The notes beneath the pieces were generated by a model that was not told the origin of the DNA, made no database searches, and saw only the letters and a program-made list of their open reading frames with translations. A stretch of 64,000 nucleotides of DNA from Olsenella sp. oral taxon 807 (lineage in GTDB: Bacteria > Actinomycetota > Coriobacteriia > Coriobacteriales > Atopobiaceae). Location: the NCBI RefSeq assembly GCF_001189515.2, contig NZ_CP012069.2:2852001-2916000 (forward strand), read 5' to 3'. Below, piece by piece: positions 23,825-63,945 of this stretch (the stretch's first letter is position 1; each line of letters opens with the position of its first letter). The translations under genes were made by a program, and so were the position numbers.

Positions 23825-23889
23825 GGGCTTCGTGATCGTGTACACTGTTGCGCCGCGAGGGTCGCGCGGGCGCCCGGTGGTGACGCAAT

Positions 23890-24484
23890 AGTGTACACAG
23901 ATCGCCGAAAACGGTCTTTCGGCGCCGTTTCGGGGCATTTGTGTACACTGTTGCGGCGCGGGGGTCGCGCGGGCGGCCCGTGGTGACGCAATAGTGTACA
24001 TAGATCGCCGAAAACGGCCTCTCGGAGCCGTTTCGGGGCATTTGTGTACACTGTTGCGGCGCGAGGCCCGCGCGGGAGGCCGGTGGTGACGCAATAGTGT
24101 ACACAGATTGGCGAAAACGGCCTCTCGGAGCCGTTCTGGGCCATTTGTGTACACTGTTGCGGCGCGAGGCCCGCGCGGGCGCCCCGTGGTGACGCAGGGG
24201 GACACAATAGTGTACACAGATCGCCGAAAACGACCTTTCGACGCCGTTCTAAGCCATTTGTGTACACTGTTGCGGCGCGGGGGTCGCGCGGGCGGCCCGT
24301 GGTGACGCAATAGTGTACATAGATCGCCGAAAACGGCCTCTCGGAGCCGTTCTGGGCCATTTGTGTACACTGTTGCGGCGCGAGGCCCGCGCGGGCGCCC
24401 CGTGGTGACGCAGGGGGACACAATAGTGTACACAGATTGGCGAAAACGGCCTCTCGACGCCGTTTCGGGGCATTTGTGTACACT
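23890..24484. repeat. Tandem array of six 60-bp palindromic elements
   Basis: Elements at 23890-23949, 23993-24052, 24096-24155, 24209-24268, 24312-24371 and 24425-24484, each exactly 60 bases. Each begins AGTGTACAYA and ends TGTGTACACT, with an inner dyad (GAAAACGG...CCGTTTC). Start-to-start distances are 103 or 113; the longer period carries a 10-base AGGGGGACAC insertion. The spacers (43 or 53 bases) are themselves conserved and begin GTTGCG and end CGCAAT (or ACACAAT in the longer ones). This is not a CRISPR: spacers are alike. Confidence 0.9.
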
Positions 24485-24555
24485 GTTGCGGCGCAGGCAG
24501 CGTCGAGAGTTGCGCTGCGGGCAGCGCCACAAGCAGCGACGCAAGCTGCGTCGGA

Positions 24556-24637
24556 TGGCACGAGCGCCTCAACGCCATGGTGTGCCGGCGGCGCCCCCTT
24601 GGTGGCCGTCTCAGCCTTGGTCGAGAAAACAGGTTCT
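24556..24637. repeat. Conserved array flank, copy 1
   Basis: These 82 bases (starting TGGCACGAGCGCCTCAAC, with TGCCGGCGGCGCCCCC in the middle and ending in ACAGGTTCT) recur in inverted orientation at 62100-62181, again right beside an array of the 60-bp elements. The flank ends at the stop end of the PRC-barrel gene. Confidence 0.8.
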
Positions 24638-61936: not shown

Positions 61937-62099
61937 CGTTCGGGTTAAAGCGATGAAATTCCATGTGTTCATGGAGGCGGGCGAGGGTTGAGGCGACCGT
62001 CCTCTCTGCTTTGAAAAGATCCCATTTCTGGCTCTTCAGGGGTTCGTGTGGGTTGACGCCTTGGCGAAGATGCCAACCTGGCAGCGGTGCCACTCGCGC

Positions 62100-62181
62100 A
62101 GAGCCTGTCTTCCCGACCAAGCGAGAGGGGCCAGCGAGGGGGCGCCGCCGGCACGCCGTGGCGGTTGAGGCGCTCGTGCCA
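62100..62181. repeat. Conserved array flank, copy 2 (inverted)
   Basis: Inverted match to 24556-24637: the shared core includes TGGCACGAGCGCCTCAAC and GTGCCGGCGGCGCCCCC on the - strand. In both places the flank stands about 60-70 bases from the nearest 60-bp element. Confidence 0.8.
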
Positions 62182-62240
62182 CCTGGCGCTACTCGCGTCG
62201 CGATTCGTATCGCGACTCGCGTCGCAACTCACGTCGCAAC

Positions 62241-62506
62241 AGTGTACACAAATGCCTCGAAACGGCGCCGAGAGGCCCGATCCTCCCATTTGTGTACACT
62301 CCTGCGTCCCCACGTCTGTCCACAACAGCGCAACAGCCCAACAGTGTACACAAACGCCCCAAAACGGCGCGGAGAGGCCCGATCCTCCCATTTGTGTACA
62401 CTATTGCGATCCCAAGGCCACCCACAACCCAAGCCCACGACCCAACAGTGTACACAAATGCCCCAAAATGACGCCGAGGGGCCGTTTTCGCCAATCTGTG
62501 TACACT
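62241..62506. repeat. Three 60-bp palindromic elements
   Basis: Elements at 62241-62300, 62343-62402 and 62447-62506, each exactly 60 bases with AGTGTACACA and TGTGTACACT ends. Inner arms vary more (GAAACGGCGCCGAGAGG etc.) than in the array at 24 kb. Start-to-start distances are 102 and 104. Confidence 0.9.
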
Positions 62507-62864
62507 GTTGCGTCGTCGCCCTGGCGGTGAGGCCCACGTCGCCAGTGCGGTGACGCAACCGCCCACCCACACGAATTCACGAAGCTTCCCATTTCTTGCG
62601 GGTCTCCAGCAATCTTTGATATGTTTGCGCGAATGAATAGGAAGGGAGACGAACTATTCACTTCTGAATATTTTTTGATGTGGCCAAATAGGATTCACTC
62701 CTGCGAGCGAGGCCTTTGACATTAAAGTGGACGTGCCAAGCCATGCGGTGTCCCCATGCCAGGGCCGGAAGCTACGTGACTCCGAAAAGCATCCGTTATC
62801 CGTTTGTACATGTACAGCTCATATCCTTGTTCCAGCTCGTGTGCGATAAGCTATCCTTGTCCAT

Positions 62865-63795: not shown

Positions 63796-63945
63796 CATGT
63801 CCCAATACGGCTCTGAGGGGCCATTTTCTCCGATCTGTGTACACTCCTGTCCCCACGTTCGCTCGCGTGACCTTCGCGTCGCAACAGTGTACACAAGTGC
63901 CCCAAAACAGCTCCGAGAGGCCATTTTCTCCAATCTGTGTACACT
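63796..63945. repeat. 60-bp element cluster at window end (one truncated, one complete)
   Basis: A copy lacking its first end (63796-63845, TCCCAATACGGCTCTGAGGG core) is followed by a full 60-bp copy at 63886-63945. The cluster may continue beyond 64000. Confidence 0.85.

Follow-up and report, generated by a model that had tools for sequence, protein, structure and literature searches.

A family of ISL3-type MITEs carrying exactly spaced paired sites in Olsenella sp. oral taxon 807

An array of six 60-bp units beside a PRC-barrel gene

The window analyzed here is a 64-kb stretch (64,000 nucleotides) of the genome of Olsenella sp. oral taxon 807 (contig NZ_CP012069.2, positions 2,852,001 to 2,916,000), and coordinates are those of the window unless called genome coordinates. 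At 23826 to 24637, it holds a degraded MITE, copy A, which reaches the stop codon of a PRC-barrel gene; a neighboring gene encodes an Nramp-like protein, whose closest solved structure is entry 7qia, from Eggerthella. In a relative of the same genus (G001), the Nramp and PRC genes adjoin without a repeat between them. The features of copy A were read from the sequence or, for the lone site, located by a site search:

23826-24637, plus strand: copy A, degraded MITE with six-unit array; left terminal repeat cut down to GGCTTCGTGA, right one lost; matches other MITE right arms up to 24637
23826-23835, plus strand: remnant of the left terminal inverted repeat, GGCTTCGTGA, joined 2 bp ahead of a lone GTGTACAC
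23838-23845, no strand: unpaired GTGTACAC site ahead of the array
23890-23949, plus strand: 60-bp paired-site unit 1
23993-24052, plus strand: 60-bp unit 2, first site changed to GTGTACAT
24096-24155, plus strand: 60-bp unit 3
24209-24268, plus strand: 60-bp unit 4
24312-24371, plus strand: 60-bp unit 5, first site changed to GTGTACAT, as in unit 2
24425-24484, plus strand: 60-bp unit 6
24485-24637, plus strand: truncated MITE right arm, cut at the PRC-barrel gene (24638), at its stop codon; matches other MITE right arms

An initial annotation, made from the letters alone, had reported six 60-base copies at 23890 to 24484 with a period of 103 or 113. These coordinates are confirmed: the units begin at 23890, 23993, 24096, 24209, 24312, and 24425, with periods, in order, of 103, 103, 113, 103, and 113 and spacers of 43 or 53 bp. 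It also described unit ends that are exact or carry one change, as holds for units 2 and 5, in which AGTGTACATA replaces AGTGTACACA, and spacers that start with GTTGCG, as all do, and mostly end in CGCAAT (three end so and two in ACACAAT). The spacer that follows unit 1 is identical to the one after unit 4, and the spacer after unit 3 to that after unit 5; because units 2 and 5 also share the altered site, the sequence points to growth of this array by internal duplication of its own units.

The further full copies that had been noted near 62.2 to 63.9 kb are four in number (at 62241, 62343, 62447, and 63886), with one truncated unit ending at 63845. They belong to copies B and C, listed here with features from duplication comparison (target-site duplications), an end-pattern search (right terminal repeat), and the sequence (copy B units):

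62022-62029, plus strand: target-site duplication CCATTTCT, 8 bp, left copy
62030-62588, minus strand: copy B, 559 bp, a complete MITE: two terminal inverted repeats, three units, perfect target duplication
62030-62052, minus strand: copy B right terminal inverted repeat (GGCTCTTCAGGGGTTCGTGTGGG)
62241-62300, minus strand: 60-bp unit, copy B
62343-62402, minus strand: 60-bp unit, copy B
62447-62506, minus strand: 60-bp unit, copy B
62566-62588, minus strand: copy B left terminal inverted repeat, read as GAAGCTTCGTGAATTCGTGTGGG on the minus strand
62589-62596, plus strand: target-site duplication CCATTTCT, 8 bp, right copy
63797-63845, minus strand: copy C truncated unit, cut at 63797; the MITE right arm is absent from this copy
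63886-63945, minus strand: 60-bp unit of copy C, whose left terminal repeat falls just outside the window (genome 2916075-2916097)

Each 60-bp unit contains two 8-base words, GTGTACAC, at an exact spacing of 50 bp. The window contains 20 GTGTACAC words versus 0.53 expected from dinucleotide shuffles (maximum of 3 in any shuffle). A search of the window against Rfam matched a tRNA only.

Paired-site units are dispersed through one genome

The single 3.21-Mb contig contains 148 exact-ended 60-bp units, whereas the reversed control pattern gives none. The loci fetched, which were partly chosen by exact sites, comprise 76 arrays with 145 units. Of 136 steps of 50 to 51 bp between neighboring GTGTACAC words in the first loci fetched, 134 are exactly 50 bp from center to center, and the steps from unit to unit are mostly 44, 52, or 54 bp. 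The site extends beyond the GTGTACAC core, to about CAAYAGTGTACACARATG / CAAYAGTGTACACARAT.

No exact-ended unit turned up in 59 relatives, 4 of them of the same genus, and the array did not match any plasmid or phage record. The one match among viral contigs (L054) differs in its interior and reads as chance. The genome collection searched contained no match to the unit ends or to the MITE end pattern, in line with the initial annotation, which had recognized no known MITE in the repeats, and none of the papers listed reports the repeat from Coriobacteria-like genomes; publications matching GTGTACAC were unrelated by title. A role in guiding replication finds no support: array orientation along the chromosome does not clearly follow GC skew.

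Most of the units are carried by a MITE with 8-bp target duplications

When the flanks of 71 arrays were oriented, they shared a left end, GAGGCTTCGTGAGTTCGTGTGGG, and a right end, CCCACACGAACCCCCGAAGAGCC, which are mutually inverted over 23 bp with mismatches. These imperfect 23-bp terminal inverted repeats (GAGGCTTCGTGAG... / GGCTCTTCGGGGG...) delimit an element to which 66 of the 76 fetched arrays (126 of 145 units) belong: 86 units lie between both ends, 40 have a recognizable arm, and 19 have none. The 54 fetched copies with both ends range from 191 to 1048 bp (median, 485), and the number of units per element varies between copies from one to five. One copy without a left arm, at genome position 92854 (L060), lies within a long reading frame predicted at 91885-94404.

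With two extra bases included at the left end, the flanking 8-mers are alike at 7 or 8 of 8 positions in 32 of the 54 copies. Among 2000 shuffled pairings, the mean was 0.8 and the maximum 5, and other offsets gave 0 to 3. Because the terminal repeats are flanked by 8-bp duplications at one exact offset, we conclude that the element around the units is a transposon, apparently a non-autonomous one (a MITE), which has spread to dozens of sites in the genome. It constitutes a new MITE family of the ISL3 type, whose unusual cargo would be pairs of protein-binding sites.

The genome has four ISL3-family (PF01610) domains, none of them inside a listed MITE copy; most copies are shorter than 700 bp. 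One complete ISL3 element, at genome positions 530327 to 531749, has a full reading frame (PF01610, E=3e-61) and is flanked by an 8-bp duplication, TATTTTTT, the classical target duplication length of ISL3 (PMC7643977). A search with the end pattern of the MITE, at 3 mismatches, picks up its ends, and GTGTACAC is absent from it. As its ends (GGCTCTTCGGGGTTTTTGGTGGG) closely resemble those of the MITE, this is likely the element that moves the MITE. A second ISL3 element, at 869.3 to 870.6 kb (L129), has different ends (GGCCCCTCRCGG) and was rejected as the favored helper; it lies ∼50 to 80 bp from a MITE copy.

The initial annotation had treated the 60-bp units themselves as the elements and had named a mobile element that moves by a helper as one of three possibilities. 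The units are real, and both transposition with 8-bp duplications and a likely ISL3-family helper bear out this possibility, but what moves is a larger MITE, with terminal inverted repeats of its own around nearly all units, which had been overlooked.

The paired sites are probably conserved for something other than transposition

Units found by their interior alone, in first loci that were partly chosen by exact ends, have 12.7% mismatch to the consensus in the interior and 0.34% at the ends. One reading of such a difference is that the units are neutral passengers, the seeming conservation of their sites reflecting only a recent origin of the MITE copies or the choice of loci by exact sites, which did partly guide the fetching. 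The terminal-repeat census speaks against this: in 46 copies chosen by their terminal repeats, a method blind to the sites, site mismatch is 0.16%, interior mismatch is 12.3%, and the arm beside the terminal repeat diverges by 28% pairwise. We regard the passenger explanation as very improbable.

In ten copies, a unit is split by an inserted array of ∼22-bp repeats. Split copies have perfect target duplications, for example at genome positions 870687, 2653283, 3159659, and 839115; thus, the paired sites are dispensable for transposition. Sites are intact in 154 of 156 cases in normally spaced units versus 10 of 20 in split units (Fisher p 1.8e-9). The altered right site GTGTACGC recurs in several split copies, perhaps through one ancestral change; counted by distinct form or position, there are at least five alterations. 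Since the words decay once split, yet split copies have transposed, the data point to selection on the pair itself for something besides transposition. Split units thus offer a natural experiment that separates the needs of the transposon from whatever maintains the paired sites.

The ∼22-bp repeat (CAGAATGCGCCTTTCCGTGAGG) is a second repeat family, found in arrays that are often inserted within the 60-bp unit of the MITE; loci include L129:4340-4560, L136, and L132 and the vicinities of genome positions 385790, 1681242, 2084386, 2480336, and 2953880. A further repeat, around CACTGCCACTCGG/CGAGTGGCAGTGC, forms intergenic arrays at L129:4770-5200 and near genome positions 628386 and 1302908.

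Our preferred explanation, which we consider probable, is that an ISL3-type MITE carries the units and that each unit is a functional pair of sites for a putative host protein. The MITE has spread by transposition with ISL3-type 8-bp target duplications, probably through the transposase of the element at 530327 to 531749. Each unit would present two facing 8-bp dyad sites, 50 bp apart from center to center, to a sequence-specific host protein, probably dimeric, that requires the two at this distance. The pair may let the protein bind across inserted DNA or may serve chromosome organization. Of the possibilities first listed for the repeats, sites for a DNA-binding protein are thus the best inference for the units, given the conservation of sites relative to interiors; the exact spacing and the recurrence of the word in fixed-geometry palindromes of other genera also favor it. 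A simple model of binding on the same face of the helix is not obviously right, because 50 bp corresponds to 4.8 helical turns, which is not a whole number. By carrying protein sites in strictly spaced rows, such a MITE would offer a route for multiplying the sites of a binding protein genome-wide.

Hairpins and units outside the MITE

Stable RNA hairpins had also been suggested. Under this explanation, read-through transcripts of the units would fold to stop transcription or to shield mRNA 3′ ends. Consensus units have predicted stems of about −30 kcal/mol, and in MITE units, 87% of interior positions pair versus 32 to 53% when slid, with two-sided changes in 6 of 11 pairs. Pairing is thus real in MITE units, for which a hairpin role is possible, and it is strong in other genera (see below). 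Ten arrays (19 units) lack any MITE arm and, by rough gene calls, never lie between divergent genes, which favors the hairpin view. In these units, however, interior pairing is weak (58% versus 35 to 49% slid, with z scattered around zero), while both sites and the 50-bp spacing are kept, some interiors being only 32 to 56% like the consensus; as these units were found by exact ends, their sites were partly preselected. Moreover, a stem does not require letter-for-letter conservation of the sites, and a terminator has no need of an exact 50-bp spacing. We therefore judge transcript folding to be quite unlikely as the main explanation.

The arm-less arrays also bear on whether the inverted pair is a REPIN-like unit, that is, a small hairpin-forming mobile unit that was trapped in the MITE, coamplified with it, and conserved as a replicating unit. 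Their position outside the MITE arms would fit, and the conserved inverted ends, the variable interior of fixed length, and the decay on breakage match reports on REPINs, which are RAYT-linked REP doublets (PMC3116915). Yet the two Y1 copies in the genome, with frames of 158 and 155 aa, look IS200-type and are free of GTGTACAC to a distance of 1.5 kb; RAYT-length Y1 genes in several genomes of other genera are unflanked by sites, apart from one lone site (L192); and hairpin pairing is weak outside the MITE. We hold this origin to be unlikely. The Y1 transposase element itself, at genome positions 1897213 and 2547829 (L055 and L056), is 677 bp long, 91% alike between copies, probably IS200-type, and unrelated to the units.

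The same word recurs in other genera with fixed spacings

Pairs of GTGTACAC at gaps of 12 to 42 bp occur in 22 of 140 family genomes, the present genome counted, and in none with the reversed control. Intergenic GTGTACAC repeats with fixed spacings were seen at L149, L150, and L153 to L172 (genomes G093, G095, G096, G099, G116, G124, G129, and G130). The spacing depends on the genus, with 19- and 21-bp steps in genus g4 and 33-21-33 in genus g27. Among the fetched examples, G096 has four sites at 33-21-33, and in G093 the inner two sites are 21 bp apart and the outer ones are altered; both forms are near-perfect palindromes of ∼95 to 107 bp with 42 to 44 pairs predicted and two-sided changes at 7 pairs in each.

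As a tentative proposal, which we think somewhat less likely to be right than wrong, GTGTACAC would be the word of an undescribed DNA- or hairpin-binding protein, used family-wide in a fixed, genus-specific geometry, and an ISL3-type MITE would have acquired and spread the paired site in the present genome. If so, the MITE seeds the chromosome with binding platforms at dozens of loci. Being common to other genera, the word offers a direct bait for finding the binding protein.

Comparison with known systems

The initial annotation saw no match to CRISPR. The spacers are not unique, as they would be in a CRISPR array, but fall into a few recurring types. Unlike integron attC arrays, the arrays have no gene cassettes: their spacers, mostly 34 to 44 bp, are too short for a gene. 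The GTGTACAC forms of other genera presumably resemble ERIC/CIR-type palindromes in being intergenic, long, and imperfect; they differ in that one 8-bp word recurs exactly, several times, at a fixed spacing specific to the genus.

Like REPINs, the units have short, conserved inverted words, and intact doublets are better conserved than broken ones; unlike REPINs, they have no linked RAYT, their word is an exact palindrome without a GTAG tag, and they were spread by a transposon that makes 8-bp duplications. The element also resembles ISL3-family insertion sequences and their MITEs: its ends are of the GGCTCTTC type, its target duplications are 8 bp long, as in ISL3 (PMC7643977), and the genome contains a complete ISL3 element as well. 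The ends of that ISL3 element and of the MITE match imperfectly (19/23), and whereas the complete element is without paired-site units, the MITE carries one to five of them internally.
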